Of a stretch of 52,798 nt of DNA, positions 7,192-41,238 are shown one piece after another; the first letter of the stretch is position 1; each line of letters opens with the position of its first letter. The notes under the pieces are model-generated. The model saw only the letters and a program-made list of their open reading frames with translations, had not been told where the DNA came from and ran no database searches. This stretch comes from Burkholderiales bacterium (GTDB lineage: Bacteria; Pseudomonadota; Gammaproteobacteria; Burkholderiales; Casimicrobiaceae): contig JAGNQL010000006.1 in the NCBI GenBank assembly GCA_017989135.1, positions 1 through 52,798 on the forward strand. The letters are read 5' to 3'. The translations under genes were made by a program, and so were the position numbers.

Positions 7192-7310
7192 ACAGCTTTT
7201 CGTGCTAAGCGACAGCTGTGCGGCGATTTGCGACGTTTTTTTCATATGTTGATATACCGTAAAAAACGCCTGCAGCGACCGTCTGGCTGTCGTTGGCACA
7301 AGAAAGCTGT
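7192..7310. repeat. About 120-bp palindromic repeat, copy 1
   Basis: 119 bp whose ends are inverted repeats: the left arm begins ACAGCTTTTCGTGCTAAGCG and the right arm, read in reverse complement, begins ACAGCTTTCTTGTGCCAACG. An inner CGTTTTTTT...AAAAAACG stem lies near the centre. It fills nearly the whole gap between two convergent genes, starting 2 bp after one stop and ending 3 bp before the other. It shares sequence with copies at 16329 and 41119. No ORF lies inside it. Confidence 0.8.
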
Positions 7311-7313
7311 TAA

Positions 7314-8288
7314 CTACTTTCCAAGCAGCACTTTGCGGAGCCACGCCTGTCGATCCTTGCGCGCGTCTTCATTGAGCATTTCGTCGGAATCAAACATGAG
7401 GCGCGTCTTTGGCTGCGACGCCGCACGATACAAATCCACCTGCTCCAGCGTCTGAACCCACGCGTCGCTGCTGGCGAATTGAAAGTGCAGCTTCGCCGGC
7501 GCGGCGAATCCGACCCACTTTTCCGGGTCGAGTGGTTCGATGGCGAGCAAATAGTTTGTCCACGCCTCTTTGTCAAAGCTCTCACGGAATTTCTTGGCAC
7601 GCGGCTGCTCGGTAACTTGCAGCCAGCCGCTCGGTTTACCCGGCGGGCTCATGAGCACCGCCGCATCCACGCGTGGGTCCACCGCGGTGAGCAAGGCCGC
7701 CGCCCACGCGCCGTAGCGATGTCCGACCACGGCGAGTTTGTCGATATTGAACTCCGGACGCGCTCCAGCCCAGTCCATCGCGCGGCGCGCATCCATGACC
7801 GCGTTGCGGATCACGTCGGCGTCACCTTCGTTGTTGTTGGCGCGGTGCACATAAGGTTGCTTGAACGGCAGTTCGACAAGCAGCGATGCGATGCCGCTCG
7901 CGGCCAACGCCTCCGCTTCTTGCACAAACATGGCGCGCTTAACCTCCGAGCCTTCGCGGTGCAACCACAACACGGTCGGATGCTTCGCCTTCGCCTTTTT
8001 GATCGGCGCGATCACCGTGACTTCAACCTCACCGCCCGTTGTGCGCGTAAGCCTCCATTCGGTGACGTCGCAACATCCCGGCTTACGAAAAACGCCGCCG
8101 GCGATGGCGGGAACGGATGCCGACTTCGCGTAGTCAAACAATTGCGCGCGTTCGGCCGGTGCTTTTTCGGCCCACGCGGCGCCACTCGCCGCAGAAATTA
8201 CTAAACTCGCAGCCAAACCACGAGCAATCGGACCGAGTCTGGCGCGCAAAGCTAAGCCAAGCGGGGCGCACAATGAAAAAAGTCGCAT
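7314..8288 (-). CDS. Secreted alpha/beta hydrolase-fold protein lacking the usual nucleophile
   Basis: 324 residues with a signal peptide (basic N-terminus, then LAASLVISAASGAAWA). The mature part looks like a dienelactone-hydrolase or peptidase S9-like alpha/beta hydrolase: PTVLWLHREGSE (oxyanion strand), GIASLLVELPF, then VVGHRYGAWAAALL at the nucleophile elbow. The expected G-x-S-x-G serine is Arg here (GHRYG), confirmed by codon CGC, so ordinary serine hydrolysis is unlikely unless another residue serves. An Asp region (VDPRVDAAVLMSPP) follows. The start is backed by AGGAGG (complement of 8297-8302), about eight bases before the ATG. It is divergent from msrP. Confidence 0.75.
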   Translation of the reverse strand: MRLFSLCAPLGLALRARLGPIARGLAASLVISAASGAAWAEKAPAERAQLFDYAKSASVPAIAGGVFRKPGCCDVTEWRLTRTTGGEVEVTVIAPIKKAKAKHPTVLWLHREGSEVKRAMFVQEAEALAASGIASLLVELPFKQPYVHRANNNEGDADVIRNAVMDARRAMDWAGARPEFNIDKLAVVGHRYGAWAAALLTAVDPRVDAAVLMSPPGKPSGWLQVTEQPRAKKFRESFDKEAWTNYLLAIEPLDPEKWVGFAAPAKLHFQFASSDAWVQTLEQVDLYRAASQPKTRLMFDSDEMLNEDARKDRQAWLRKVLLGK

Positions 8289-8368
8289 GAAAGGTTCCTC
8301 CTTGATGAGACGACAGACACAAAACCCGATTAGCCCGAATTGTCGGAAACCATTGAAAAGGATTGGTC

Positions 8369-9322
8369 ATGCTGATTAAACGTCCCACCGACATTTTGCC
8401 TTCAGAAATCACTTCGCAGGCCCAATTCAACGCGCGTCGCGATTGGATCAAGCAGGCGGCCTCGATGGGTTTGATCGCTGGCTTGCCGGCGATCACCGCG
8501 TGCACCGCTGAAGCGCAAGGCGCGCGGCTGGCCGGTGTGAAGCCCAATCCAGCGTTTCTGCTGCCTGAGGAAAAGATCAACAAGTTCGACGAATTCAAGA
8601 ATTACTGCAATTTCTATGAGTTCGGCACCGACAAAACCGATCCGCCGGCTTACGCTAAGTCACTGAAAACGAGACCGTGGACAGTGGCGGTCGAGGGTGA
8701 AGTGTTGAAGCCCAAGGTGTTCGACATCGACGAGCTATACAAACTCGCGCCGCTCGAAGAGCGCGTGTATCGCTTTCGTTGCGTAGAGGCGTGGTCGATG
8801 GTCGTGCCGTGGGTGGGCTTTCCGCTATCAGCCCTCATCAACCAAGTGCAGCCCAAGGGCAACGCCAAGTACGTGGAGTTCGTTACGCTTGCCGACAAAG
8901 CGCAAATGCCCGGTCTGCGTGGTGGCATGCTCGACTGGCCATACACCGAAGGGCTTCGCATGGACGAAGCGATGCATCCGCTGACGCTCTTGACGCTCGG
9001 TGCGTTCGGCGAAATGTTGCCGAATCAAAACGGCGCGCCGATTCGCATGACGATTCCGTGGAAATACGGCTTCAAAGGCGGTAAATCTATCGTCAAAATT
9101 CGCTTCGTCGAGAAGGAGCCTCGCACTGCATGGGTTAAAGCCGGGCCGCAGGAGTACGGCTTCTATTCCAACGTGAACCCCACGGTTGATCACATGCGTT
9201 GGAGCCAAGCCACGGAGCGCCGACTTGGCGAATTCAGCAAACGCAAGACGCTCATGTTTAACGGCTATGCGGATCAAGTGGCTTCGATGTACGCGGGCAT
9301 GGACTTAAAGAAACTGTTCTGA
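8369..9322 (+). CDS. msrP: Protein-methionine-sulfoxide reductase catalytic subunit MsrP
   Basis: Periplasmic molybdopterin enzyme (formerly YedY) that repairs oxidised methionines in envelope proteins, using electrons from MsrQ. About 317 residues from ATG 8369, chosen because AAAGGA (8357-8362) sits six bases before it; a TTG at 8363 also opens the frame. A Tat-type N-terminus is visible ([20 protein letters not shown]). The Mo-coordinating Cys138 lies in [37 protein letters not shown] is also typical. It lies upstream of msrQ, separated by a DUF2306 gene. Confidence 0.95.
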
Positions 9323-9510
9323 TGTGATGCATCGGTTTCGATGATCTGTATGGTGAGGTGCGAACAGGTCGCCGTACGAAAGGCGTCAGAACCGCTCGCG
9401 CTGATTTTTGGTCGTTGGCGACGCCCGGTGACCAGCGGTCGCGTGCGAGTTGTGGTCAATGAGAATGATCGCTGAAATGACCCCATCGCCTTCACGTAAC
9501 GTTCTTCCCC

Positions 9511-9918
9511 ATGAGCCCAGACACCTACCAAAACGTCTATCTGCCACTCGCGTACGCGCACTTGGCCACCATCGTGCCCGCGTTTGTGATTGGCTCGTAC
9601 ATGATGTTCGCGCGCAAAGGCTCGCCCTTGCACCGTTTGCTCGGCAAAATCTACATGCTGCTCATGCTTGCCACGGCAGTGATTACGCTTTTCATGCCCG
9701 CACTCGTCGGTCCGTCGGTGCTGGGGCATTTTGGGTTCATTCATCTGTTTAGCGCGCTAGTGCTGATCTCGGTTCCGCGCGCCTACCTCGCTGCCAAGCG
9801 CCACGACGTGAAAACGCACGCAGGAAGCATGATCGGCCTCTACGTAGGGGGCATGCTTATCGCTGGCGCCTTCACCTTTATGCAGGGGCGCCTGCTCAAC
9901 ACGTGGCTATTTCATTGA
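9511..9918 (+). CDS. DUF2306 family membrane protein
   Basis: 135 residues with about four transmembrane helices: 17-34, 47-66, 72-92 and 107-128 approximately. It has the DUF2306-like pattern RKGSPLHRLLGKIYMLLML followed by HFGFIHLFSALVLISVPRAYLAAKRHDVKTHAGSM. The conserved His residues face the membrane interior and could bind haem or metal, but this is inference. It is placed between msrP and msrQ, and its stop (TGA 9916-9918) overlaps the msrQ reading frame, so the two are likely co-translated. No function is established. A role in electron transfer to MsrP/MsrQ is a reasonable guess only. Confidence 0.75.
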   Translation: MSPDTYQNVYLPLAYAHLATIVPAFVIGSYMMFARKGSPLHRLLGKIYMLLMLATAVITLFMPALVGPSVLGHFGFIHLFSALVLISVPRAYLAAKRHDVKTHAGSMIGLYVGGMLIAGAFTFMQGRLLNTWLFH

Positions 9919-10556
9919 CCCAATCTACACCCGCGCGCACGTGGCGCAACCCCAGCAATAGCGCCGTCACGCGCGTCAAGTGGGCGCTGATTCTCATTGG
10001 TATGCTGCCGCTGGCGCGGCTCGTCGCGGGCTTTTTCACTAATTCGTTAGGCGCAAACCCAATCGAGTTCATCACGCGCTCAACGGGTACTTGGACGCTC
10101 GTGGGGCTCGCGCTCACGCTGGCGATTACACCGCTGCGAACCCTGCTTAACTGGCCGTGGCTTGTTCGCCTGCGCCGCACGGCGGGATTGCTTGCGTTTT
10201 TTTACGCGGCACTGCACTTCACGACCTACATCTGGTTTGATCGCTTCTTTGATGTGGGCGATATTCTCAAAGACATCGTTAAACGCCCGTTCATCACCGT
10301 TGGATTTGCTGCGTTCGTGCTGCTTATTCCGCTCGCGGTCACCTCAAACAACGCCATCATCAAAAAGCTAGGCGCGAAACTCTGGCAGCGCATTCATTAC
10401 TTGGTCTACTTGATCGCCGTGTTGGCCGTGATTCACTACTGGTGGTTGGTGAAAAAAGACCTCACGCAACCGATCATCTACGCAGTGGTGTTCGCGCTGC
10501 TTCTGGGCCAACGTGTGTTTTGGAAATGGCATAAGGTGCGGGTCGCCCGCGCGTAG
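9903..10556 (+). CDS. msrQ: Haem-containing membrane subunit MsrQ
   Basis: Inner-membrane b-type haem protein (formerly YedZ) that passes electrons from the quinone pool or flavin reductases to MsrP. 217 residues, six predicted helices. Ferric-reductase-like His residues appear in FFYAALHFTTYIWFD and LWQRIHYLVYLIAVLAVIHYWW, and RPFITVGFAAFVLLIPLAVTSNN is typical. The start is uncertain: GTG 9903 gives the full frame, while TTG 9915 overlaps the upstream stop as TTGA, a common coupling arrangement. Either way it overlaps the DUF2306 gene. Confidence 0.93.
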   Translation: MAISLTQSTPARTWRNPSNSAVTRVKWALILIGMLPLARLVAGFFTNSLGANPIEFITRSTGTWTLVGLALTLAITPLRTLLNWPWLVRLRRTAGLLAFFYAALHFTTYIWFDRFFDVGDILKDIVKRPFITVGFAAFVLLIPLAVTSNNAIIKKLGAKLWQRIHYLVYLIAVLAVIHYWWLVKKDLTQPIIYAVVFALLLGQRVFWKWHKVRVARA

Positions 10557-10677
10557 CGCCCGCAGCGGTAACGCAAATTCATGCAGGTTTCGCATACGCT
10601 CTCGCATTGAAGCGCGCATCTGCCTAACATTGCTCGTATCGGTTGCCACAAGCGCCAAAACATACGATTCGATACCC

Positions 10678-16136: not shown

Positions 16137-16328
16137 TAAAGGGGCTGTACGTGGCCCTCCGCCGGGACCTCTCTCGTCGAGGACTTTGCGCGCTGAGCGC
16201 AGCCTTCATGCAATCAGCATTTTTGGTGAGGAACATTCCGGAGTTTCAGCCTTGGACGCGGTCGTTTCCGTCGGGCCTTGTCTGACGGCTTCGGCATCGA
16301 AGCACGATCTCCGCAACGACTTCGACAT

Positions 16329-16448
16329 ACAGCTTTATCGCTCTAACGACAGTAATTTGGACGTTACAGCCGAATTTATTGATTAGTCGACTTTGTGCGA
16401 TATTGCCTTCAACGCAAGGCTGAGCAGCGGTATGGACCGAAAAGCTGT
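16329..16448. repeat. About 120-bp palindromic repeat, copy 2
   Basis: 120 bp from ACAGCTTTATCGCTCTAACG to a right end that reads ACAGCTTTTCGGTCCATACC in reverse complement. In reverse complement its central and right parts align with copy 4 at 41119: both carry a TCGACT core and a CTGTCGTT....ATAAAGCTGT end. It lies 192 bp past the lipA stop in a convergent gap. Confidence 0.8.
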
Positions 16449-16467
16449 ATTCGCTATGGACGAAAAG

Positions 16468-16488
16468 AAGCCCGCACGAGGCGGGCTT
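16468..16488. terminator. Candidate hairpin terminator between lipA and the response regulator
   Basis: AAGCCCGC (16468-16475) pairs perfectly with GCGGGCTT (16481-16488) across a 5-base loop. Only short A/T runs flank it. It lies between convergent genes, so it could serve both directions. Confidence 0.55.
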
Positions 16489-16492
16489 GAGT

Positions 16493-16543
16493 CCTTGGCG
16501 ACCTGATAAGACCGGAGGTGTATCGAGGGGGTGGTCTCCAAGG
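16493..16543. other. Long stem of unknown role
   Basis: CCTTGGCGACC (16493-16503) and GGTCTCCAAGG (16533-16543) pair at 10 of 11 positions around a 29-base loop. It follows the GC hairpin directly. It could be part of a small RNA or of a 3' untranslated region; no further support is visible. Confidence 0.4.
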
Positions 16544-16676
16544 GGCACACTGTGTTTCTAGACTGATCTAGAGCATGCAGGTGTCATATTAAGTGCTGCT
16601 CGCGCGCTTGTCAAGCGGACAGCCTCGTTTGCTGCGAGAGCCAAATGTCGATGTTGGTTCGGTCGCGTTGCGCTCG

Positions 16677-25531: not shown

Positions 25532-25640
25532 ACCGAATCATGCGCCCCGTTTCGTACACATGCAAACCCATGCGATGGCGTTGCCGGCAAGCTGCGTTTT
25601 CTCTGCTCTCCGCAGGTAAGTGCCGCAACGTCAAGAACAT

Positions 25641-25658
25641 GTCACCTACGTGTCACCT
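25641..25658. promoter_or_regulatory. GTCACCT direct repeats with 11-bp spacing
   Basis: GTCACCT occurs at 25641-25647 and 25652-25658, one helical turn apart, in the gap between the divergent TPR regulator-like gene and the giant gene. A GTGAC in the opposite sense lies nearby at about 25669. This is a candidate operator. Confidence 0.4.
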
Positions 25659-25742
25659 CAGCGTCCTTGTGACCAACAATTTCATTCTACAAAATGGGGT
25701 TCACGCCTAAGCACTATGGCCTGTCAGGTGCGGAGCTACTCC

Positions 25743-28700
25743 ATGAAAATCACTCGGTTGCCAGTCATGGCGCGTGCCCTCGCGACGCTCGTTGTGGTGC
25801 TGTTCACTGCGAGTTCAAATGTCGTGACTGCCAGCGGTGCAGATGACCCGAACGATTCGCGCGTTCAAGCGCTCGCTGCGACTCTGGGTAACAACCCAGC
25901 GACCATTTTTCAGCACGTGCGCGACAACATTGGCATCGAGATTTACAACGGTAGCCTACGTGGTGCGCGCGGCACACTCGCCAGCAAAGCAGGCAATAGT
26001 CTTGATCGCGCCAGCCTAACCATCGCATTACTGCGTGCAGCCAATCCAAGTATTGAAGCCCGTTACGCTCAAGGGACGTTGGGAAACACCGAGGCGACAG
26101 CAATCGCAGCCCGGATGTTCAATGACCCGTCGCGTGTGCTTGGCTGCGACAACCCAGCGCCAGCGTTTACTGGTGGTTTCTTGTCGCTGGTCAGTGAAGC
26201 AACAAATCACTTCTGGGTTGAATATCGAATGGGCAGCAGCGGTCCGTACACCGCGCTCGACACAGCGTTAACCACCACTGCAGCGAACCAAACGCTGGCA
26301 AGCGCCACACAAACGTTTACAAGCATTCCTTCCAATCTTCGCCACACCACACGCATACGGCTGGAGGTGGAGAGTTTCACGCAGGCCGCGGCAGCATTCG
26401 GGTTGGCCCTTGGTACAACCACTGTACTCGATCAAACCTTTGACAGCGTCGATCTCGTTGATCGTGCAGTGAGCGTGAGTCACTTTGCAAATTCGTTTTC
26501 GCCGCCATCGTTGACGGTTGGCGCAACGCAAAACACGTATTCGCCCTACCTTACGGTTGGCGACAGTACAACCAGCATTTCCAATTACAACCTTATTCGC
26601 GGGATCGATTACAACGAGATCGTCACCAACTTTCCGCTTGGCAATATTTTGGTCACAGGTGTCTTTGTAACCGTAGATGTGACTGACGCCGCAGCACAAA
26701 CACAATCACAACGACGACCGATGTTTGATCGCATCGGCTACGTGACACGCACTCAGGGTGGGCCAGTCACCGTAGACCAGAACAGTCTCACGCGGCCTGT
26801 GCTAACCGAGCTTGACGTGATGACACTTGCGATCAGTCCGTCGCGTCAAGCGTTAGACGATTTTTCGGCACGTAAAGCGCGATTGCAGGAGCTACAGGCG
26901 CAGGTTGCATTGCTGCAACCCCTCGTTCAAGCGCTGCCGCCACCGGGGCAACGTGACGCGACGCAGGAAGCGGTAGCGCGCGACAGTTTAGTCGCCGCTC
27001 GCTACTCTCTTATTGCGAACAATGAGCTAGCTCTCGCGTCGTTTTTGGGGGCGGCAGATCAACAGATTGACGAGCAATCGCTGCGCTCGCTGGTTAAGGC
27101 TTACATCGCGTCACCACGCATCACGATTGCGATGTCGCGCTTCAAAAATGATGCGCTTGCGCTGTCGCTTGATCTGCGTAAGAACGATCTACGCGTTTTC
27201 CCGCTGCCGGGAATCGCCATGGCCAACGCGCGCAACTTTGAGCGTAACCGTGGGCTCGGTGAATCAATCCTGGAAGGGGAGGTGTTATCGAGTATCACGG
27301 GTGATCCGAATCGCTCGATTTCGTCTGTGCTCGCAACGGTGACCGACGCGTCCCGCTACCGGCCAGTAACAAACTCCAACTTAAGCGTGATTGATTCGTT
27401 GAACCTGTCGACCGAGTCAAAGTTGCGTATTCGCGCTGCTGTTCAAGCGGGTCGTGTGGTGCTGGCGCCGATGGATGTGGTGACTGTCGGCGGCGTAGCC
27501 GTCAACGCGTGGCTCGAAACTGATCCCAGTACGGGCTACACCATTAGCACACTTGAAGACGGCTCCCATGGCGCATTTGTTGAATACGTCTTCGCGGTCG
27601 CGGCGCAGATTTCGTCATCGCAAGCGGCGGTGATGGGGCAATTGATCGGTCGCGTTAACGCGGTCGGCGTGTTCGGCATCGCACTCACGGCCGCCATCGT
27701 TGACTCCATCGTCGCGCAACGTCCATTTTCTGATTTGGGGCAGCAATTGCGGACCACGCTCGCTCCAATTCTGAAAGGCATTGTGCAGTCGATCAAAGCC
27801 GAACTTGATCTTATGGGACTGCTGGCCATTGAAATCGAAGGTCCGGCAGGTATTGTTAAGGAGCTGCTTACGGGCCTCATCGAGGGCCTGGATGATATGA
27901 CCAAAATGTTCGCCGGGGAAAATGGCGATCCACCCTTACCACGCTTGCTGTTCTCTTCAGCAACTCCACCAGTGCCAGCAGCGCAAACGCCGGGCGCTAC
28001 CGCAGGGCTCGCGCTCTCTGCGACGCTGGATGCGCGCTTCAGCCGTCCATTTGCCGGAGCCGAATTCGCATCGGTTTACCTCATGCGAGCGGTAAACACC
28101 GGGCCTAATGCGGACACGTTTCGATTCACCGCCTCCGGCGGAGGTGGCGGTTTGAACGTTACCGATCCGCAATATGTGTTGCCGATTGTGCGCATCAAGC
28201 CTGGTGCCACCTTTGAGTTTCACCTCTGCATCGACCCTAACAGCGCGATACCGGCGGCCGGGGCCGTGGCTTCTTTTCAAGTCACCGGCACCAGCACGAC
28301 GACACCGTCAGTCACCACGACCACGATGGGAGCTTTCACGACTCCGAGCACGCCCGCGCTACGAATGCGATTTGCGCCGTCGCCGCAGGCCGCTCTGCCA
28401 GGTGACTCGGTTCCAGTGACGCTGACGCTCGACTCGTTAGGCAATCAAGCCACATCGGTTGCCCTGACGACGCAATCGTCACCGGGCCTAGTGCTGACGG
28501 GCGTTCCATCGACCGCGTTGCTCGCGGTAGGCGAAAGCCGCTCGATCGCGCTTACCGCAATCGTGGGCGGTGGCGTGTCGCCGGGAACCGCGTTGGAGGC
28601 GGTGGTGCACGGCAGTTTTGGCGGCGCGTTTCCAGTCCGCGCGACGGCGTCTGTAACGGTCACTTCAGCGATCACACACTGTGCCGCTCCAGCAAGCGTC

Positions 28701-31700
28701 GCTGCAACGCAAATCGGTCGCGCGAATCTGGCGGGATTATTGGGCGTACTCTCAACCGACATTGACCAACTGGCGACCCAGCCGCAATCGATCAGTCTTC
28801 GTGATTCGGTGTTGCGCGAAATTGATGGACTGGTCGCTCAGTTCAACGCGCCATTTCTTTCGGCGCTAGCGCCCGGTTTTGCGTCAGCTCGCGGCGGTAT
28901 CGCTTCGGCCAATGTGGGCACGATGGGCTCTGCCTTGTCCGCGCTGGACGCTCAGTTCTGCGCTCTGCAAAGCGCGCTACGGGCTGCGTACACAGACGCA
29001 TATCGCGTGTATCTATCGCCTGCAATTGCGACCGCGTTGCCCAACCTAACCACTCGCGTCAATCTAAATCTGTTCAACGACACAGCCAATCCCCGCGCGA
29101 TGAATCTTGCAGTCGTCGGACTGCCAGCCGGTGTTACCGCTACGTTCAACACTACGCGCGTGGTAGTGCCAGCGAACTATCGCACCAACTTTTACTTGCC
29201 CGAGTCGTATGTCACTTTTTCAAACGACGGCACTGCTCAGTCATTCGAGTATCAGATCGTCGTGACACCTGAGGACGATAGCTCCAGCGCGAAAACCACG
29301 TTAGGACACTTCAGCGTGCGGCCGGAAATCGTGCGCGTGGTGGACGTGAACGTCAGTCCCGCGTATGGCGATGCGGGCACTATCTTCACTCCAACGGTAA
29401 AACTCCTGAGCGCGGTAAACGATACGCGCGAGGTCAAGTTGCGATATGTTGTGAAGAACCGAAATGGCCAGGCGGTGACCTTTCCGTCGCCCATTGCCGC
29501 CGTTACGGTTACGTCGGGTGACAACGTGCAATCGATAACGATGAGCCCGTTTTCCGCTATCGGATTTCCGGATGGACCCTACACCGTAGAAGTGACCGCC
29601 TATGACGCCGTGTTAGAGCCGATCCCAGGAGCTGTAGGCATGGCAACCGTGTTCGTCGGCCAGCCATTCGCCGCCGGACTCACCGTGACGCCAGCGCTTC
29701 TGGCACCAGGCACCAGTACCGTCAACGTCGCGCTGAATCTTGAACACAGTCTGGTCGCGCAGCAAAGCCTGAAACTACGCAGCACGCTCGCCTTACCAGC
29801 GGGCCCGCTGTCTTTCGCGCAAAATGGCGACTATCTTTACGTCTGCCAAAACACCGCGGTCACCATCGTTAACGTCAGCAATCCCGATACGCCGGTCACG
29901 ACTGGCACGTTTGCCAGCGCTGTGCTCACCAATGGCGCGCCAAGCGGTTTTGAAACGGTCGATTGCACCGTGTACAACGGTCAACTCATCGTCGGTTTCG
30001 ACAAGAAATTACCCGAACGATCTGGCTCGCGAACGTTGGCAATATTCGATATCGCAGGCGCAAACGCGACCAGTCCGCTGCTTTTGACTCCCACGCCTAT
30101 CGACACCGGCAAGAAATTTGGCAGCGGCCTGCGTTTTATCGGAACTGATGGCTACATGTCGACCGGTTTGTTCGTCTACAACCCGTTCTCAAACTTCATA
30201 TTTGAGCAACATGGCAATCTGCTCAAGTTTGATTTCTCGACGCCTTTTTCGCCGACGTTGACAGGTAGTCTCTACCCGTCCGGCGCGGGCAATCCGCCCG
30301 AAAATCAAAGCGATACCGGCGGCCCCCATTTTGTTACTGGTGTCGCGGCGCACACGAACACGCGCGCGCTGGTCGCGACGACGACCGGAACCGGGGACTT
30401 TTTCAACGGTGTGGGCAACCTGTTGACCGTCGACACGTCTCAGCTCCCAACTAACTGTCCGGGCCTGAGCAATCCTTGCATCGTCTCAACGCTCACAGTC
30501 CCACAGGCGCACCTACTGATTGGAGTCGCGTCTCAGGGTGCTGCGGCTATCGCAACGGGAGATACACAAGGCTTTTACGACGTGAACAGCGGCTACACCG
30601 GTAACCTCACGCTGTCGGCCATCAACCTCACCAACCCGTCCGCGCCGACCCTCAGCAGTACGCTGGTCACACCGCTAGTCCACAACGAGACTTACACCTG
30701 CAATCAGGCTGAGCGCAAAGGATTCTCATCGACTCAAGCGTTGACCAATAACTACTACGCCATCGGCGCATACAACCCGGCATCTTGCACGTGGGTGCTG
30801 GTGCTCATCGACGCCAACGATCCGGGGAATTTGCGCTTCATTCCATACGACGTACCCGACAGCATTCGCGGCTTCGTCCTCAACGGAAATCTGCTCTATG
30901 CCATCACCGCCAGCTCGGTATTGGTGTTTGATTACACGGGCATTGTTGGTCCGTCCGTCACGGCGAACGTCGTTGTTCCCAAGGGCACGGGCGTCACTAT
31001 AGTGCCGAATTCGTTCAACGTCACGCCCACTTTCATCGCCAGCACGGCTACCAGTGACACGTACACGTGGCAGCAACCCGTGGTGGCTCCCATTACATGG
31101 CAGGCTATCGTTAGCGCGATGCAACCCGGTACTGGTCGCGAAGTCGCCACTGGCGGCGACGTTCAATTCACGCTGCCGACACTGGGTTCCGGCCGCTTGC
31201 CGCTGTCGCCGGCCATTGTGACGTCCAACCACATTATCGCGGTGTCGACCTCGGTACCCCTGTTGGTCGCAATCGGTTCGCCAGCCACCTACGTTGTCAC
31301 ACTGACCAATCCGAGCTTGACGAGTCCGGTCACCTACAACTTGACTACGGAGGGCGTCCCAGTTAGCTGGGTCAAGACACTGGCTCCGAGCATCACGCTC
31401 GGAGCGGGCGCGGTCGTGACCACACCCCTCATCGTCCAGTCAAACATCGGTCAAAGCGGCGGCAGTATCGACTTTCGTGTCGTATCGAACGCAAACGGCA
31501 TCAGCGACGCAGCAGTTGCGACGCTAGGCAATTATTACGGCCCGAATGTCGGCGAAGATACAACCGCAAATGTAGGCGCGTCAATTTACACGGTGACGCC
31601 CACTTCGGCCACCGGTGCGAAGGGCAGCACTACGTCCATCACGGTGACAGTGACCAACACCGGGACAGTGACCGACGAATACAGTATGACCGATAGTTCA

Positions 31701-32927
31701 CTGCCCAACAACTCTTGGAGCACGACGATTGAGCCCACCTCGGCGTGGGTCGGCCCTGGCGAATCTATCGATTTCAAGATCAGCGTTGCGGTTCCGACAT
31801 CGCCGAACGTCGCCATGGGCAATAACTCAGCAACCTTTGCTCTGTACTCGCGCGCGGTAGCGCCGCGCCTAGTATCTACCAACATCAACGTGTTGGATGC
31901 AGGGGTTGCGCTGACAATGTCGCCGAATTCGGGTACTACGGTGACGCCGTTCACCGCCACCATCACCAATCTGTCTGGCGCGGCGGACACCTTTGACTTG
32001 GCGCTCACCGGGCCACTCGGACCGACAATTACACCTAGCGCCTCTACGGTCGCGCTCGCTGCCGGCGCATCGACCACTGTTAACCTCTCTGTTGGTAGCG
32101 CAGCGGCGTTTGCGCGGCCCGGCACCAGCAGCTTTGGCGTGCTCGCGGTCTCACGAGCGGCTCCCAGCGCGTTTGCTCGCGCGAGCGCTGTTGTAACGAT
32201 CCCCATAGCCAGCGCCGTCAATGTGACCGGGCAGCCTGCTACGTCAGTGTTGACTTCCACGCCGACGACACGCGTTGTCAATGTTGTCATTCAGAATCTG
32301 GGAAACATTGAGGATCAATTTAGCCTAACGATTCTCGGGACGTCCGGGCCTGTCACTGCTCAATTGCTAGACGCATCTGGTGCAGCCGTCAGCAGTATCA
32401 CAGGCATCACGATTCCAGCGTTTTCCTCCGCAGTTGCGCGCCTGTCCGCCATGATCTCCAGCAACTCGGCGGCTACGGTGACGGTGCGTGCAACGTCGAT
32501 GAGCACGGCAACTACGCAAGCTAACGCAACCATTCAGTTCGGATTCGTTGCGCCACCCGTATGCAGCTTAGACGTGGACGCCGACGGCAAAGTTAATGCG
32601 TTGACCGACGGTCTTTTAGTGATTCGCTACATGCTGGGGTTAAGTGGCAGCGCACTAACCAACGGCATTTACGCATCCGGCGGTGGCGCCGAATTTGGCG
32701 GCATCGTGACTCGCCTCGGCGTAATAGGCGCCAACAATTGGCTCGACGTGGATGGCAACGGCGAGGTGAAGGCGGAGAGCGACGGCATTCTGCTGCTCCG
32801 CGCCTTGTTTGGCCTGAACGGAACGGCGGTTACAGAAAACGCGCTTGGAATCAGCCCGCGTTCGCGGGAAACCTGGCCAACGATCCGTGATTACCTGAAT
32901 ACGGTTTGCGGGTTGGGTTTGCCCTGA
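25743..32927 (+). CDS. Giant secreted protein: transglutaminase-like start, beta-propeller, dockerin-like end
   Basis: 2394 residues from ATG 25743, chosen for its signal peptide (MKITRLPVMARALATLVVVLFTASSNVVTA) and a GGAG about seven bases upstream. Residues 45-230 are transglutaminase-like (IFQHVRDNIGIEIYNGSLRGA, AGNSLDRASLTIALLRA, His156 in NHFWVEY); Ser86 replaces the catalytic Cys, as is common in this subgroup. A coiled region (about 370-420) and an alpha-helical part follow. Ig/CARDB-like beta domains come next, then an LVIVD-like propeller (about 1340-1740) and DUF11/CARDB-like repeats to about 2265. The end (2274-2394) has two calcium-loop repeats, DVDADGKVNALTDGLLVIRYMLG and DVDGNGEVKAESDGILLLRALFG, of dockerin type. 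It is probably a surface or secreted scaffold. Confidence 0.82.
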   Translation: MKITRLPVMARALATLVVVLFTASSNVVTASGADDPNDSRVQALAATLGNNPATIFQHVRDNIGIEIYNGSLRGARGTLASKAGNSLDRASLTIALLRAANPSIEARYAQGTLGNTEATAIAARMFNDPSRVLGCDNPAPAFTGGFLSLVSEATNHFWVEYRMGSSGPYTALDTALTTTAANQTLASATQTFTSIPSNLRHTTRIRLEVESFTQAAAAFGLALGTTTVLDQTFDSVDLVDRAVSVSHFANSFSPPSLTVGATQNTYSPYLTVGDSTTSISNYNLIRGIDYNEIVTNFPLGNILVTGVFVTVDVTDAAAQTQSQRRPMFDRIGYVTRTQGGPVTVDQNSLTRPVLTELDVMTLAISPSRQALDDFSARKARLQELQAQVALLQPLVQALPPPGQRDATQEAVARDSLVAARYSLIANNELALASFLGAADQQIDEQSLRSLVKAYIASPRITIAMSRFKNDALALSLDLRKNDLRVFPLPGIAMANARNFERNRGLGESILEGEVLSSITGDPNRSISSVLATVTDASRYRPVTNSNLSVIDSLNLSTESKLRIRAAVQAGRVVLAPMDVVTVGGVAVNAWLETDPSTGYTISTLEDGSHGAFVEYVFAVAAQISSSQAAVMGQLIGRVNAVGVFGIALTAAIVDSIVAQRPFSDLGQQLRTTLAPILKGIVQSIKAELDLMGLLAIEIEGPAGIVKELLTGLIEGLDDMTKMFAGENGDPPLPRLLFSSATPPVPAAQTPGATAGLALSATLDARFSRPFAGAEFASVYLMRAVNTGPNADTFRFTASGGGGGLNVTDPQYVLPIVRIKPGATFEFHLCIDPNSAIPAAGAVASFQVTGTSTTTPSVTTTTMGAFTTPSTPALRMRFAPSPQAALPGDSVPVTLTLDSLGNQATSVALTTQSSPGLVLTGVPSTALLAVGESRSIALTAIVGGGVSPGTALEAVVHGSFGGAFPVRATASVTVTSAITHCAAPASVAATQIGRANLAGLLGVLSTDIDQLATQPQSISLRDSVLREIDGLVAQFNAPFLSALAPGFASARGGIASANVGTMGSALSALDAQFCALQSALRAAYTDAYRVYLSPAIATALPNLTTRVNLNLFNDTANPRAMNLAVVGLPAGVTATFNTTRVVVPANYRTNFYLPESYVTFSNDGTAQSFEYQIVVTPEDDSSSAKTTLGHFSVRPEIVRVVDVNVSPAYGDAGTIFTPTVKLLSAVNDTREVKLRYVVKNRNGQAVTFPSPIAAVTVTSGDNVQSITMSPFSAIGFPDGPYTVEVTAYDAVLEPIPGAVGMATVFVGQPFAAGLTVTPALLAPGTSTVNVALNLEHSLVAQQSLKLRSTLALPAGPLSFAQNGDYLYVCQNTAVTIVNVSNPDTPVTTGTFASAVLTNGAPSGFETVDCTVYNGQLIVGFDKKLPERSGSRTLAIFDIAGANATSPLLLTPTPIDTGKKFGSGLRFIGTDGYMSTGLFVYNPFSNFIFEQHGNLLKFDFSTPFSPTLTGSLYPSGAGNPPENQSDTGGPHFVTGVAAHTNTRALVATTTGTGDFFNGVGNLLTVDTSQLPTNCPGLSNPCIVSTLTVPQAHLLIGVASQGAAAIATGDTQGFYDVNSGYTGNLTLSAINLTNPSAPTLSSTLVTPLVHNETYTCNQAERKGFSSTQALTNNYYAIGAYNPASCTWVLVLIDANDPGNLRFIPYDVPDSIRGFVLNGNLLYAITASSVLVFDYTGIVGPSVTANVVVPKGTGVTIVPNSFNVTPTFIASTATSDTYTWQQPVVAPITWQAIVSAMQPGTGREVATGGDVQFTLPTLGSGRLPLSPAIVTSNHIIAVSTSVPLLVAIGSPATYVVTLTNPSLTSPVTYNLTTEGVPVSWVKTLAPSITLGAGAVVTTPLIVQSNIGQSGGSIDFRVVSNANGISDAAVATLGNYYGPNVGEDTTANVGASIYTVTPTSATGAKGSTTSITVTVTNTGTVTDEYSMTDSSLPNNSWSTTIEPTSAWVGPGESIDFKISVAVPTSPNVAMGNNSATFALYSRAVAPRLVSTNINVLDAGVALTMSPNSGTTVTPFTATITNLSGAADTFDLALTGPLGPTITPSASTVALAAGASTTVNLSVGSAAAFARPGTSSFGVLAVSRAAPSAFARASAVVTIPIASAVNVTGQPATSVLTSTPTTRVVNVVIQNLGNIEDQFSLTILGTSGPVTAQLLDASGAAVSSITGITIPAFSSAVARLSAMISSNSAATVTVRATSMSTATTQANATIQFGFVAPPVCSLDVDADGKVNALTDGLLVIRYMLGLSGSALTNGIYASGGGAEFGGIVTRLGVIGANNWLDVDGNGEVKAESDGILLLRALFGLNGTAVTENALGISPRSRETWPTIRDYLNTVCGLGLP

Positions 32928-33688: not shown

Positions 33689-34420
33689 ATGATGACTGCT
33701 TCACACCACATTTTGGTGGTCGACGACGACCAACGGCTGCGCGAGTTGCTGCAACGATTTTTGACGGAACAAGGATTTCGCGTGACCGCGTTGCCGGACG
33801 CGCGCGACCTTTCGCGCCGACTTGAGCGCGATCCGCCGCATCTCATCGTGCTCGACTGGATGATGCCGCATGAAGACGGGTTGGCGGTCTGCAAACGCCT
33901 TCGTGCATCGGGCGACCGAACCCCCGTCATCATGCTCACCGCCAAGGGCGAAGAGGACGAGCGCATCGACGGCCTCGACGCGGGCGCAGACGATTACCTC
34001 GCTAAACCATTTAGCCCACGCGAACTGGTCGCTCGCATGCATGCGGTGCTGCGCCGCGCGGCAGAGATTTCTCCGGGGGCGCCGATGCCCGTCGATCAGC
34101 CGGTTGCGTTCGGCGATTGTGAAGTCAATTTCGCGACCCGCGTGCTCACGCGCGCTGGCGTGGCTCAAGACTTAACGACGAGCGAGTTCGCCATGCTCAA
34201 AGTGTTCGTCACGCATCCACACGAGCCGCTCACGCGCGAGCGCTTGTCGATGCTGGCGCGCGGCAAAGAACACGAGGTATTCGACCGCGCCATTGACGTG
34301 CAGGTGTCGCGCTTACGTAAGTTGGTAGAAGCCGACGCTGGAAAGCCCCGTTACATCCAAACCGTATGGGGACGTGGTTACGTTTTCGTGCCGGATCAAG
34401 CTGAGTCCGAGCCTCGATAG
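33689..34420 (+). CDS. ompR: OmpR-type response regulator
   Basis: 243 residues. The receiver domain shows HHILVVDDDQRLRELLQRFLTEQGF, phospho-acceptor Asp56 (LIVLDWMMPHEDGL), TAKGEE and the Lys in DDYLAKPFSPREL. The winged-helix DNA-binding domain has LTTSEFAMLKVFVTHPHEPLTRERL, IDVQVSRLRKLVE and YIQTVWGRGYVFVP. It follows E. coli OmpR closely along its whole length. The gene has two in-frame ATGs (33689, 33692). The kinase gene follows 7 bases later. OmpR is the best name by sequence, but its divergent Spy-like neighbour gives a CpxR-like context. Confidence 0.88.
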   Translation: MMTASHHILVVDDDQRLRELLQRFLTEQGFRVTALPDARDLSRRLERDPPHLIVLDWMMPHEDGLAVCKRLRASGDRTPVIMLTAKGEEDERIDGLDAGADDYLAKPFSPRELVARMHAVLRRAAEISPGAPMPVDQPVAFGDCEVNFATRVLTRAGVAQDLTTSEFAMLKVFVTHPHEPLTRERLSMLARGKEHEVFDRAIDVQVSRLRKLVEADAGKPRYIQTVWGRGYVFVPDQAESEPR

Positions 34421-34427
34421 CTGCCGA

Positions 34428-35783
34428 ATGACTTTTAGCGCGATGCCAAAAACACTGTTTTGGCGACTTACGTCGCTGTTGCTGATCGCACTGGCGGTTG
34501 CGGTGCTGGCAATGGTGCTGCTTTTTCGGCAAGACCGTGCGTCACTCATTGCAAAACACTTCACTGATGCGAAGTTAGAGCAGATTGATTCGCTGCGCAG
34601 TACGTTGGCCAAAATGCCGCTGGAAGAGCGCGCAGACCGCACGGACCGCCCCGGCGGCCGGATGTTTCCGTTGCAAAAGCTCGGTCGAGAATACGGCATC
34701 ATGCTCATTCCAACAGACCGCCGGCCCGAGATCGGCCAAGTGCCGCGTGGCCCCGCGCTGGCACCACTCGTTGAGAAGCTGCAAGAGCACTTAGGTGCCG
34801 ACACGGAGATTCGGCTGGGCATGCGCGTCGATCAACCCGTCGTCTGGATTCGTATGAAAGTGGGCGAGGACGGCGCGCGTAGCGTGTGGGCGGGCATCCC
34901 GATTCGCAACGTGGAGGCCGGTGAAGTGCCCACGCGATTGCTGGTCACGCTTGGCATCATTCTGGTGGCGCTGTTGGCGGCAACCTACTGGTTTGCCCGG
35001 CGGCTATCGCGGCCGCTGGCCGACCTTGCGGATGCGGTCGATAAAGTCGCGGTCGGCAAACGGCCCGACCCGTTGCCCGAAAACGGCCCCACGGAAATTG
35101 CGCGCGTGGCGCAGAACGTGAACCGCATGGCCGCCAACTTGGAGCGCCTCGAACGCGACCGAGGCACGATGCTCGCGGGCATTTCGCACGACATTCGCAC
35201 GCCGCTGACGCGCCTGCGGCTCGCCAGCGAGATGGCCGTGAGCGATGCGCAAAGCCGCGACGAAATGGCCGCGGACATCGATGAGATTGATCGCATCGTC
35301 ACGCAATTTCTCGACTTCGCGCGTGGCAACCCGAAAGAAGCGCCCACACGCATCGATCTGCGTGAAGCGCTCGCCGCCATCGAACAGAAAGCCGCGAGTC
35401 GCTCCGTTCCGGTGCTGTGGACGTCGGGTGAACAAGCAGTCTTTGTGAATACCTACCCAGCGGCGTTCGAGCGCATGCTCATGAATCTCATCGAGAACGC
35501 ACATCGCTATGGAAAACCACCCGTCGAATTGCAGCTGCGGCGCGACGGCGTGATGGCCGAAATTGACGTGCTCGACGCCGGCGCTGGCGTTGCACCGGAA
35601 GACGTTGAGCGCCTGAAGCAGCCGTTCGTGCGCGGCGATCAAGCACGTGGCGGCGCGATGGGTGCGGGCCTCGGGCTGGCACTGGTAGAGCGCCTCGCGC
35701 AGTGGCACGGCGGCAATTTTGACCTGCTGCCCCGAAGCGGCGGCGGCACTATTGCGCGGCTGCGCTTACCGTTGGTTCCTTAG
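34428..35783 (+). CDS. envZ: EnvZ-type sensor histidine kinase
   Basis: 451 residues from ATG 34428; an ATG at 34443 is an alternative. TM1 is about 12-32 and a periplasmic sensor follows (33-168). TM2 is about 170-190 (LLVTLGIILVALLAATYWFA), then a HAMP domain (RRLSRPLADLADAVDKVAVG). The DHp domain carries His254 (MLAGISHDIRTPLTRLRLASEMA), and the catalytic domain has an N box (MLMNLIENAHRYG), DAGAGV and GAGLGLALVERLAQWHGG. It partners the OmpR-type regulator directly upstream. The cue cannot be told, though the nearby Spy-like genes suggest envelope stress. Confidence 0.88.
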   Translation: MTFSAMPKTLFWRLTSLLLIALAVAVLAMVLLFRQDRASLIAKHFTDAKLEQIDSLRSTLAKMPLEERADRTDRPGGRMFPLQKLGREYGIMLIPTDRRPEIGQVPRGPALAPLVEKLQEHLGADTEIRLGMRVDQPVVWIRMKVGEDGARSVWAGIPIRNVEAGEVPTRLLVTLGIILVALLAATYWFARRLSRPLADLADAVDKVAVGKRPDPLPENGPTEIARVAQNVNRMAANLERLERDRGTMLAGISHDIRTPLTRLRLASEMAVSDAQSRDEMAADIDEIDRIVTQFLDFARGNPKEAPTRIDLREALAAIEQKAASRSVPVLWTSGEQAVFVNTYPAAFERMLMNLIENAHRYGKPPVELQLRRDGVMAEIDVLDAGAGVAPEDVERLKQPFVRGDQARGGAMGAGLGLALVERLAQWHGGNFDLLPRSGGGTIARLRLPLVP

Positions 35784-35832: not shown

Positions 35833-35963
35833 ACAGCTTTTAGCCGAATGCGACCGCCAAACCGCGCGTTGGAGTGGCATTCCAGCTGCCTTGTAGTCGA
35901 TGTGCGGCGGTCGTTTCAGCTCGATCGCTACTTCAGACTCAGCTCACTGGAAGCACGAAAAGC
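35833..35963. repeat. Decayed palindromic repeat, possible copy 3
   Basis: It begins with the family end ACAGCTTTTAGCC. It has an inner inverted pair: AGCCGAATGCGACCGCC near 35842-35858 and GGCGGTCGTTTCAGCT near 35907-35922. The right terminal AAAGCTGT is not conserved. It lies between the convergent envZ-type and Spy-like genes, as copies 1 and 2 lie between convergent genes. Membership is less sure than for copies 1, 2 and 4. Confidence 0.4.
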
Positions 35964-35990
35964 AAAACGCCGTCACGTGACGGCGTTTTT
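35964..35990. terminator. Bidirectional terminator between envZ-type and Spy-like genes
   Basis: A perfect palindrome AAAACGCCGTCA-CG-TGACGGCGTTTT with a T run on each strand's 3' side. It ends both convergent transcripts. Confidence 0.92.
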
Positions 35991-36033
35991 CTGGATTGCT
36001 GCGCCGTTTTCGGCGTAGCGGTTCTCCGACGAC

Positions 36034-38853: not shown

Positions 38854-38871
38854 AGTGCTGTCCCCAACGCC

Positions 38872-38880
38872 TGTGGATAA
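38872..38880 (-). promoter_or_regulatory. Perfect DnaA box (TTATCCACA)
   Basis: TGTGGATAA on the plus strand is the exact complement of the consensus box TTATCCACA. It lies just upstream of the priA start. DnaA could regulate priA here, or it may be a chance match. Confidence 0.5.
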
Positions 38881-39051
38881 ATATGTGAACTAAACCGACT
38901 TGACACGCGCAAAGTCCCATCTGAATGCGGTTGTTGGTGTGTTGCTAGATTCTGTGGCGCGCAAATAAATATCAGCAAATTCAATGAGTTACGCTATTTT
39001 CCAAGGGTTTCAGTGGGGGCACGTACTCACCTATCGAAAAAAATTTATTTT

Positions 39052-39060
39052 TGTGCATAA
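39052..39060 (-). promoter_or_regulatory. DnaA box-like site (TTATGCACA)
   Basis: TGTGCATAA is the complement of TTATGCACA, which fits the relaxed consensus TTATNCACA. It is in the same orientation as the perfect box 180 bp away and next to an A/T-rich run (39036-39052) in the 277-bp priA-hemE gap. Confidence 0.35.
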
Positions 39061-39130
39061 CTGCCAATATCGTGTAGCAAATTCAGCGCTCGTCAAGCGT
39101 TGATGGCCTGTATTTGCTTATGTCGTTGCA

Positions 39131-40183
39131 CTATATTTTTTTGAGGCTTTCGACCAAGAATCCAACCAGCGCTGGGTCGGCGTCTGGCGTGATGCCGTGG
39201 CCCAAATTGGCGACAAAGCGATGATGCGCGTCGAACCCCGCGAGCGAACGTTCGAGCTCGCGCGTGATGGTGGCTTCGTCGGTCGTCAGTAGCAACGGAT
39301 CAAAATTGCCTTGCAGCGTGACATTTGGCCCTGCTGCGGCACGCGCTTGCACCAGATCACTCTGCCAATCCACGCCCAAGCCATCGGCACCCGTTGCGGC
39401 CATGACGTCAACGCTGTGCGCCGCGCCGCGACTAAAGAGCATGATGGGCACGGCCGGGAATTGCGCGCGTAGCGCAGCAACTATGCGCTGCATAGGTGAC
39501 AGCGAGAACTCGCGGTACAGGCGCGGAGCCAAGACGCCGCCCCAGGTGTCAAACACCATGAGCGCATCAGCACCCGCCCGCGCTTGGCCCGCGAGGTACT
39601 CGGTAACGGCTGCCACGTTGACGTCAAGTACGCGCCGAAACAGTTCTGGGCGTTGCAGCATCATTCGACGCGTGAGCGGAAACGCGTCGCCAGATCCGCC
39701 GCCTTCGATCATGTAGCAAGCGAGCGTGAATGGGCTTCCCGAGAAGCCAATCAGTGGCACCGATTGCTCCACGCCGTTGGTCAGTGCGCGCTTGCATTCA
39801 GCAACAGCGTCAAACACGTATTGCAGCTTCGTCATGTCCGGCACCGCCAACGCGTTGACCGCCGTTTCGTCGCGCAGCGGGCGTGAAAATCGCGGGCCCT
39901 CGCCGACGCCAAACGAGAGGCCGAGGCCCATCGCATCGGGCACGGTAAGAATGTCCGAAAACAAAATGGCCGCGTCAAGCTGGTAGCGCTCCAAGGGTTG
40001 TAGAAGCACTTCGGCGCAAAACGATGGCGAATGGCAAAGCTCTAAAAAGCTGCCGGCCTTGGCACGCGTGGCGCGATATTCCGGCAGATAACGACCGGCT
40101 TGCCGCATGAGCCAAATCGGCGGGCGCGTCAGGCGAGCGTCGGTGAATGCGCGGAGGAAAAGGTCGTTTTTTAGGATGGCCAT
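39131..40183 (-). CDS. hemE: Uroporphyrinogen decarboxylase
   Basis: Cytoplasmic haem-pathway enzyme that removes four acetate carboxyls from uroporphyrinogen III to make coproporphyrinogen III. 350 residues from the ATG at 40181-40183 (MAILKNDLFLRAFTDA); the open frame continues to 40216, but the family start is here. Seen are PPIWLMRQAGRYLPEYRATRAKAGSFLELC with the substrate-binding Arg, DAAILFSDILTVPDAMG with the catalytic Asp, GFSGSPFTLACYMIEGGGS, and a final NLGHGITPDADPALV. It lies upstream of priA on the same strand. Confidence 0.97.
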   Translation of the reverse strand: MAILKNDLFLRAFTDARLTRPPIWLMRQAGRYLPEYRATRAKAGSFLELCHSPSFCAEVLLQPLERYQLDAAILFSDILTVPDAMGLGLSFGVGEGPRFSRPLRDETAVNALAVPDMTKLQYVFDAVAECKRALTNGVEQSVPLIGFSGSPFTLACYMIEGGGSGDAFPLTRRMMLQRPELFRRVLDVNVAAVTEYLAGQARAGADALMVFDTWGGVLAPRLYREFSLSPMQRIVAALRAQFPAVPIMLFSRGAAHSVDVMAATGADGLGVDWQSDLVQARAAAGPNVTLQGNFDPLLLTTDEATITRELERSLAGFDAHHRFVANLGHGITPDADPALVGFLVESLKKI

Positions 40184-40308
40184 GAGCGTTAACGCGAGGT
40201 GTCGTGGGTGCTCCAAGTCCGCGATCGGAACGGGAGTCTAAGGAAGAATGCGGCCGCGCGACGATGCGCGACGCAGAGAAAATTCGGGGCGATTAAACCA
40301 GCGTTTCC

Positions 40309-41079
40309 TTAACGGCGAACTAACGTGAGTGTGCGGTTCGACCAGTTCGGAGCAAGACGCTTCAAAAATTCGCGTCCGATGACGGTCGTCGTGAGCCCGG
40401 GTTTTTCGCTAACGATTGCGTTGAGGCCGTACACGTCAATCGGGCCGACGCGTACAGAATTGAGCGGAAGCGAGTACGTTTTGTACATCAACGGCTTGCC
40501 GTCCTTGTCTTTCGGATCGATCACCGTTTTGATTTCTTTTCCCTCTTTCATCTCAATCGTTGTTTGTCGAGGGGCGCGGTGTAACTGCGATTTTTTGTCT
40601 TTGTACGGAAGGTTGAGTCGGTCCGCATCGGCAACGGGAATCACGATGATGTCGACGTTGCGATCAATTTCGGCTTGCAGATTGCCGCCGTTAACGAGAG
40701 CCGCGGTCTTGTAAAGGTTCTTTTGATCGGCTTTGATTTGGTGGCTGACGAAGCCCTGAGTCTGCGAGTCAACCACGATGGTTTCGCCCACACGCATTCG
40801 CTGCGGCAACCCGTTGTAGCGAAAGACAGCGGTGTCGTCGACGACTTTTTCGAGTAGCAACCCTTCATCCGTGAAGTGGCCGACCCGCGCGTCGATCCGC
40901 GTGCCGTCGACCATGAACTGCGCGCTGCTACGCGCACCGACTGAGGATAGCTGAAGCGTGGTGGCGCTCATTTCTCCCGCCAACAATGCGCTGAGCAGCA
41001 GCGCCGAAGCGGCAAACGAACGATACGCAACCGTGCGCACGGCCAACCTGAAAAGCGTGGAAGATTTCATAGGCGTCAT
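40309..41079 (-). CDS. Secreted retropepsin-like protein with a degenerate active site
   Basis: 256 residues with a signal peptide (SFAASALLLSALLAGEMSA). It follows the layout of clan AA (retropepsin-like) bacterial proteins: an SH3-like or strand-rich N-terminal part (DTAVFRYNGLPQRMRVGE), a pepsin-like unit (AALVNGGNLQAEIDRNVDIIVIPVADADRLNLPY), and the closing strand VYGLNAIVSEKPGLTTTVIGREFLKRLA. The expected D-T/S-G-A motif is absent; DRNVD stands in its place, so proteolysis is doubtful. This assignment rests on pattern likeness only. Met4 (41070) is an alternative start. Palindromic repeat copy 4 lies 39 bp upstream. Confidence 0.6.
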   Translation of the reverse strand: MTPMKSSTLFRLAVRTVAYRSFAASALLLSALLAGEMSATTLQLSSVGARSSAQFMVDGTRIDARVGHFTDEGLLLEKVVDDTAVFRYNGLPQRMRVGETIVVDSQTQGFVSHQIKADQKNLYKTAALVNGGNLQAEIDRNVDIIVIPVADADRLNLPYKDKKSQLHRAPRQTTIEMKEGKEIKTVIDPKDKDGKPLMYKTYSLPLNSVRVGPIDVYGLNAIVSEKPGLTTTVIGREFLKRLAPNWSNRTLTLVRR

Positions 41080-41118
41080 GCTAATACGACGCTGCAGCGG
41101 CGTAGGGGTTCACTGCTA

Positions 41119-41238
41119 TTAGCTTTATGGCGTTAGCGGCTTATCTGTATGGATTTGCGCCGTGTTTTATTACTTATCGACTTATACAGTTTTTCAGCCG
41201 TAAGCGCCACACAGCTGTCGTTCCAGCCATAAAGCTGT
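41119..41238. repeat. About 120-bp palindromic repeat, copy 4
   Basis: 120 bp with a TTAGCTTTATGGCGTTAGCG start and an AGCTGTCGTTCCAGCCATAAAGCTGT-type end (41213-41238). In reverse complement its first 40 bases match copy 1 well (CGACAGCTGTGYGGCG in common), and it aligns with copy 2 over most of its length. It lies between the retropepsin-like gene and the terminator of the repeat-protein gene. Confidence 0.8.

Follow-up and report, generated by a model that had tools for sequence, protein, structure and literature searches.

The window analysed here, 52,798 nucleotides long, is the entire contig C102 (JAGNQL010000006.1) of a Burkholderiales genome of the family Casimicrobiaceae (assembly GCA_017989135.1, below G000; 3.35 Mb in 331 contigs, 79.7% complete). 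It carries three full copies of an imperfect palindrome of about 120 bp, at the coordinates that a preliminary description of the sequence had reported, together with parts of two further copies. The palindromes belong to a family that is dispersed over the whole genome, and we propose that they are candidate protein-bound DNA sites maintained by selection. The features are listed below, with scores in bits from R1, a sequence-only model built from 36 copies; the scores of the three full copies are not independent of the model, since all three were among the 36.

7192–7310, no strand assigned: element copy 1, 119 bp, filling the gap between convergent genes (stops at 7189 and 7314); 72.3 bits
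16329–16448, no strand assigned: element copy 2, 120 bp, flanked by convergent genes; the counterpart in genome G003 has the element, identical at 60 of 120 bases; 63.0 bits
16329–16336, plus strand: outer end ACAGCTTT of copy 2, with its mirror at 16441–16448
16345–16365, plus strand: inner inverted repeat in the left half of copy 2 (half positions 17–37), with its mirror at 16412–16432; this motif varies between species
16386–16391, no strand assigned: dyad centre GTCGAC of copy 2; the family form is GTYRAC
35833–35900, plus strand: left half of an apparently decayed copy, after the kinase gene at 34374–35783; 11.7 bits, E 0.013; an intact element lies at the corresponding gene end in G005
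41119–41238, no strand assigned: element copy 3, 120 bp, with a degenerate left end (TTAGCTTT), between tandem genes and downstream of the gene at 41359–44376; 57.2 bits over 41121–41238
52770–52798, plus strand: initial 29 bp of a copy at the contig end

Copy 1 is located 2 bp past one stop codon and 3 bp ahead of the convergent stop codon, copy 2 has convergent genes on either side at distances of 192 and 228 bp, and copy 3 is flanked by two minus-strand genes in tandem, 120 bp past a stop codon. Both of the additional copies that had been suspected were traced. The one at 52770 is the beginning of an element truncated by the contig end; at 35833 the left half is recognised by R1 and the right half is unrecognisable, and this copy looks decayed, given that the flank of a 118-bp element in G005 (64 bits) can be aligned with the end of this same kinase gene. 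The statement that no copy holds an open reading frame (ORF) did not stand, as a mechanical ORF of 100 residues (16246–16548, minus strand) spans copy 2, its status as a gene being judged from the ORF list only.

The expectation that the palindromes form a family found throughout the genome, often at the 3' ends of genes, was borne out. The preliminary description had reckoned with fewer than about ten copies if there were no such family, and the pattern ACAGCTTT-N95..110-AAAGCTGT is found at 69 places in G000, with 0 places for the reversed control; R1 gives at least 150 matches when both strands are counted. When 712 kb of G000, partly chosen around known copies, were scanned with a gapless matrix, 79 places were obtained, of which 72 lie above 70 bits (scores 75–131), the best reversed-sequence score being -30. 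Five long contigs of G000 (375 kb) contain 40 copies of at least 34 bits, corresponding by extrapolation to approximately 350 elements per genome.

The length of the element is strikingly constant. With 112–129 bp allowed, an exact length of 120 bp was measured for 74 of the 87 two-arm matches from the 712-kb G000 sample and for 24 of 27 from 318 kb of G012. Of 37 elements in 400 kb of G005, a genome consisting of a single contig of 4.47 Mb, 15 measure 119 bp and another 15 measure 120 bp (weakest match 26, versus a reversed-sequence maximum of 15.9), and in G004 seven of the nine copies among the matches listed are 118 bp. Over its full length the element forms an imperfect inverted repeat, with the terminal inverted repeats ACAGCTTT...AAAGCTGT, and each half consists of ACAGCTTTT, a variable stretch, the inner repeat AACGAC-N9-GTCGTT (half positions 17–37), a T-run at 46–50 and its share of the centre GTYRAC, seen for example at 16386–16391 of the window. 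All 144 halves examined have T at half position 59, and the information content amounts to 108 bits per element (105 copies). The centre has the form of a known restriction site, that of HincII.

The family appears to be centred on one genus. At E 0.01, R1 matches 12 of 40 genomes, all of them from the genus, which is represented by 17 genomes including G000, and none of the 23 genomes of other genera; the exact pattern is present in 11 of the 17, at 1 to 69 places each. G002, G008 and G016 gave 0, 3 weak and 0 matches with R1, respectively, and 0 places with the pattern. Negative R1 results are no proof of absence, since the model recognises only forms close to those of G000. G005 and G004 have an inner motif of the type AAAGCCC...GGGCTT, with ends and centre like those of G000, and further candidate versions of 116 bp between AGCT ends were seen in G010 (three in 80 kb) and G007 (one or two in 100 kb); this 116-bp form was not found in 120 kb of G002 or 100 kb of G016. 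Nothing of this form was revealed by a palindrome scan of four genomes that belong to other genera of the family, with 80–120 kb covered in each. Similarly, no match was obtained by distant BLAST of copy 2 against plasmids or of copy 1 against phages, and a scan of viral contigs for the element gave 0.

Named records among the matches listed (at least 78 stretches) are mostly metagenome-assembled genomes (MAGs) of Burkholderiales or Betaproteobacteria. Six single matches in this list belong to taxa with other labels (L088, L107, L111, L127, L134, L148). Five of these agree with the consensus at 42–51 of 120 positions and were taken as chance; the match in L134 (1325–1444) agrees at 76 of 120 and looks real. 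The MAG from which L134 comes (JAKQOD) bears the label Deltaproteobacteria, which may be wrong, or the bin may be mixed. Another MAG, JAPUER, contains both inner types at equal read coverage (12.1–12.8), the GCCC type in L108 and L113 and the GACC type in L124, L128 and L153. It is as if sites were switching singly or two families coexisted, and replacement may thus proceed site by site.

To what extent the element is held in place at individual loci was assessed by comparing G003 with G000. The 76 G003 entries (some loci duplicated) comprise 41 without counterpart in the compared G000 sequence, 4 at its edges, 29 (27 distinct) that share the element at the same place, and 2 that do not; the compared G000 sequence was partly chosen around elements, and for the five long contigs alone the element is present in 10 of 11. 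For the 22 distinct pairs where both elements are 120 bp, identity falls from 0.90 at high-information positions to 0.64 at middle- and 0.46 at low-information positions. Eleven of these pairs have a conserved flank (at least 14 of 20 identical bases on one side), and for them the corresponding values are 0.94, 0.73 and 0.58. Four-fold degenerate codon sites in 24 genes have an identity of 0.56, chance being 0.315. The free positions of the anchored pairs are accordingly as diverged as neutral sites and the key positions are retained, indicating neutral drift at the former and retention at the latter. Copy 2 and its G003 counterpart, although they agree at only half of their bases, both still match the family.

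These results bear on the proposal in the preliminary description that the copies are MITE-like (miniature inverted-repeat transposable elements). On such an account, a transposase that needs both 60-bp ends would have moved the copies, target immunity would have spaced them, and insertions harmful to genes would have been lost. The inverted ends and the dispersed intergenic copies are in line with this, as are differences in presence between species: the two G003 entries without the element in G000 are away from sequence edges, and several G012 elements are absent in G000. Half of the orthologous pairs, moreover, are no more alike than unrelated copies. On the other hand, neutral decay would not hold key positions at 0.94 when free positions at the same locus reach the neutral level, and signs of recent movement were not observed. 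No near-identical pairs were found among 72 copies (roughly a fifth of all copies), where mean pairwise identity is 70.2 compared with 69.8 for independent columns, and in a whole-genome BLAST the best other match to copy 2 was 79% over 62 bp. Target-site duplication, sought in the flanks of 61 copies with k = 2–9, remained near the shuffled value, with a largest excess of about 2 standard deviations at k = 9; old copies could have lost a duplication. In the samples scanned, lone halves came to one true case in the 712 kb of G000 (six rows representing five places, four of them at cut ends of stretches), none in the 318 kb of G012 and none in the 400 kb of G005. The MITE account is thus unsupported on several counts, and we regard it as unlikely.

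Gene context was analysed on gene calls from a simple script based on codon usage. For the 712-kb sample of G000, an element is present in 28 of the 94 gaps between convergent genes, in 35 of 415 between tandem genes and in 4 of 97 between divergent genes; the count omits 12 further elements that lay at the ends of stretches or were not flanked by a called pair of genes. The corresponding figures are 7/41, 15/200 and 4/41 for G012, and 11/59, 18/231 and 6/58 for G005, so that the preference for convergent gaps is common to the three genomes. Among gaps of at least 150 bp, the proportions with an element (convergent, tandem and divergent, respectively) are 13/21, 19/57 and 2/22 in G000, 4/13, 15/49 and 4/23 in G012, and 8/14, 12/63 and 6/26 in G005, to be read with the caveat that an element adds 120 bp to its own gap. 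G000 elements that score 60 bits or more lie at a median of 39 bp from a stop codon and 132 bp from a start codon. After LipA (named from Pfam), an element precedes the convergent next gene in both G012 and G005. It was also observed that the element in G005 (L185, L276) overlaps the coding end of LipA, the stop codon of which lies inside the element.

A location at gene 3' ends could reflect a function in RNA, and the preliminary description had mentioned terminators or mRNA stabilisers. Each half would then be a terminator or a stabilising hairpin for the gene it faces, and the symmetry would serve convergent genes. The enrichment in convergent gaps fits this, and so does the layout of the half, with a hairpin at half positions 9–45 followed by a T-run. 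The inner hairpin covaries weakly (z 2.0 with 72 copies, z 3.8 with 193 copies; the latter value was obtained at register 54, and eight further registers came within 1.3 of it), and real halves are more stably folded than column-shuffled controls (-12.2 versus -10.6 kcal/mol in G000, and likewise in G003 and G012), possibly owing to a minority of halves that have turned into terminators. Furthermore, the 15 strongest hairpins are all in halves that face a gene 3' end (97 such halves, compared with 42 others), which is the part of the terminator proposal that stood. Yet halves facing a gene 3' end and those facing a 5' end show no difference in median folding energy (P 0.70), and among 91 element-bearing gene ends a terminator is found in the facing half in only 13%, elsewhere in the gap in 10% and in either in 23%, as compared with 16% of 249 gene ends without an element. 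Judged as intrinsic terminators (a stable hairpin followed directly by a U-run), the family as a whole fails and individual halves qualify; termination as the main function was thus rejected on the equal median energies and the low facing-half rate. The exact length of 120 bp and the even spacing described below would also be left unexplained, and altogether a bidirectional RNA element seems quite improbable.

RNA structure of the whole palindrome was likewise rejected. Covariation beyond column composition is absent for whole-palindrome pairs (z -1.0 with 72 copies, z -1.5 with 193 copies), partners in the global palindrome vary independently within species, and a left half is as similar to the right half of other copies (33.9 of 60 positions) as to its own (33.6 of 60). 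Rfam gave 0 matches above gathering score in the window, and for the element in L216 only a sub-threshold match to a miRNA precursor (29.1 bits against a cut-off of 74). Terminator-like ordinary hairpins stand beside the elements, in the window at 35961–35992 and, by eye, at approximately 16468–16488 and 41274–41293, and a separate terminator is therefore possible at an element-bearing gene end.

The elements are spaced more evenly than expected by chance. The coefficient of variation (CV) of the spacing is 0.64 in G000 (35 spacings), 0.49 in G012 (26) and 0.46 in G005 (34), with mean spacings of 9.3, 11.5 and 10.9 kb, respectively. Random placement, uniform or within gaps, gives a mean CV of 0.87–0.95, and the observed spacing has P ≤0.003. 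When gaps were weighted by class and size, P was 0.016, 0.0004 and <0.0002 (G000, G012 and G005), and <0.0002 pooled; evenness against the uniform null was robust at five score cut-offs (P ≤0.0195 in each genome).

A long, rigid, dyad-symmetric site of around 100 bits, in which some letters are fixed and others drift, and which is evenly spaced and enriched between convergent genes, is what would be expected if a large DNA-binding assembly, itself symmetric, docked there. The rigidity, symmetry, information content, lack of whole-palindrome covariation, constraint at conserved-flank loci, convergent enrichment and evenness are computed properties; protein binding, wrapping and a role in topology are what we infer from them. 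On balance, the family probably represents a dispersed, selected, putatively protein-bound symmetric DNA site with a role in chromosome topology. A symmetric protein assembly would bind, and perhaps wrap, each two-fold symmetric site of 118–120 bp, at some 300–400 sites per genome that would be roughly evenly set, one per 9–12 kb, often just past stop codons and enriched between convergent genes. The sites would probably hold or relieve DNA supercoiling, as boundaries of topological domains or as strong sites for a topoisomerase or nucleoid protein, and some halves would additionally have become intrinsic terminators. The inner motif shifts between species and the ends and centre stay, which suggests co-evolution with the putative binding protein. 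A more specific version can be imagined, in which a genus-specific protein machine wraps about 350 near-equal 120-bp sites every 10 kb or so and thereby divides the chromosome by evenly set, sequence-encoded boundaries, site and protein co-evolving so that the inner half-site becomes species-specific; this we put forward tentatively, as a possibility more doubtful than probable.

The base composition of the element has a marginal 10-bp phase, which is no more than suggestive of DNA lying on a protein surface. Local A+T maxima in the G000 half profile are near 7, 17, 27, 37, 47 and 57, with others between them. The best period is 10.0 in both G000 and G012, and for a phase of 9.5–11.5 bp a position shuffle gives P 0.007, <0.0005 and 0.004 in G000, G012 and G005, respectively.

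Several observations weigh against a selected DNA site. When an autocorrelated null is used, the 10-bp phase becomes marginal (P 0.057, 0.008 and 0.032 in the same order); the strongest period in G005 is 8.0, with 10.0 a close second, and the G000 and G012 profiles correlate at 0.95. Avoidance of divergent gaps is clear only in G000, not clearly in G012 or G005. All convergent gaps taken together also have a CV below 1 (0.73, 0.55 and 0.73), and part of the evenness may thus stem from gene layout; target immunity could also yield even spacing. The 11 ortholog pairs without a conserved flank have, by subtraction, identities of about 0.86 at high- and about 0.34 at low-information positions, close to the 0.83 and 0.30 of unrelated copies, so that deeper drift, wrong pairing and re-insertion are indistinguishable there. 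Among the 72 copies, the spread of identity is 5.2 compared with 4.3 for the null, and the best pair (89 of 120) is above all 20 null maxima (82–86), which means that some shared ancestry remains. The weak covariation of the inner hairpin and the improved folding of the halves also belong on this side. Finally, no binding protein has been identified for the candidate site from the sequences, and the neighbours of elements in divergent gaps of three genomes had no common DNA-binding gene when compared by eye (first 70 residues; no family search was made).

Target immunity, a property of some transposons, would produce even spacing. Dispersed, symmetric DNA sites that are kept by selection include the matS, Noc and SlmA sites of chromosome-organising proteins, which are approximately 12–16 bp and have known proteins; the present element shares their dispersal, symmetry and selection, but is 120 bp and has no known protein.

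The nearest functional parallels would be the BIME-2 gyrase sites and the proposed supercoil barriers. According to passages of PMC6379681, the gyrase motif of Escherichia coli covers about 130 bp and has a centre and arms in which G/C is phased, and BIME-2 (bacterial interspersed mosaic elements) are strong gyrase sites that are cut by the enzyme; about 600 BIMEs per genome have been proposed as supercoil barriers, as stated in part of PMC6907758. A special case of the DNA-site interpretation is therefore that the elements are strong gyrase sites, where gyrase is predicted to wrap the 120 bp and act at the dyad centre. Length, phase and location at 3' ends resemble the E. coli motif and BIME-2, as compared by description. 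The motif is called degenerate in the same passages of PMC6379681, however, whereas the element family has 108 bits with fixed letters, and a conserved enzyme poorly explains a species-specific inner motif, for which reasons we find gyrase an improbable partner.

The other reading in the preliminary description was of REP/BIME-like units. REPs (repetitive extragenic palindromes) are, in the passages of PMC3733652 at hand, dispersed and mostly downstream of genes, 20–40 bp in length with GTAG or CGTC tags, the GTAG ones being linked to RAYT (REP-associated tyrosine transposase). The likeness holds in that both are dispersed extragenic palindromes, often downstream of genes; as far as these passages describe REPs, the difference is that the element is one rigid 120-bp unit, single and evenly spaced, with no spacing below 1.7 kb in the three samples. 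The comparison is thus retained in the sense of working like a REP or BIME, not of being one. RAYT-like genes do exist in the genus, as Y1_Tnp matches were found in 15 of the 17 genomes, 1–7 in each, those on contigs C254, C39, C90, C38 and C85 of G000 among them.

ERIC (enterobacterial repetitive intergenic consensus) is described in the relevant part of PMC2229807 as a 127-bp long imperfect palindrome that is intergenic, and is listed there with TA termini and target duplications; the same part characterises MITEs such as Correia/NEMIS and RUP as short and non-coding, with inverted ends and high copy number. Our element resembles ERIC, so described, in being a long, intergenic imperfect palindrome of similar size, and differs in its 118–120 bp, lack of duplication and occurrence in other bacteria, being set apart by the description of ERIC only. 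With the MITEs, on the same description, it shares short non-coding repeats, inverted ends and high copy number, but it is without recent copies or duplication and is constrained at each locus. A literature search, with a coverage short of most subscription journals, found no description of the 120-bp family. Integron attC sites, also considered, were set aside because each copy stands alone, with ordinary genes around it.

What constitutes a supercoil-diffusion barrier in bacteria is described as an open question in the consulted part of PMC6907758. The family would offer candidate barrier sites that are visible in the sequence, more even than chance, present in a genome assembled as a single contig (G005), and of an inner type that varies by species. 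A further suggestion from the family is that long palindromes scattered over a genome can be DNA sites under selection rather than mobile remnants.

Two minor observations concern other sequences. A separate family of tandem hairpins, with a core like TTCGACAAGCTCACCACGAACGG and unlike the 120-bp element, was noted in G010 (L303:1–280), and the window contains an ORF of 2435 residues at 25620–32927.

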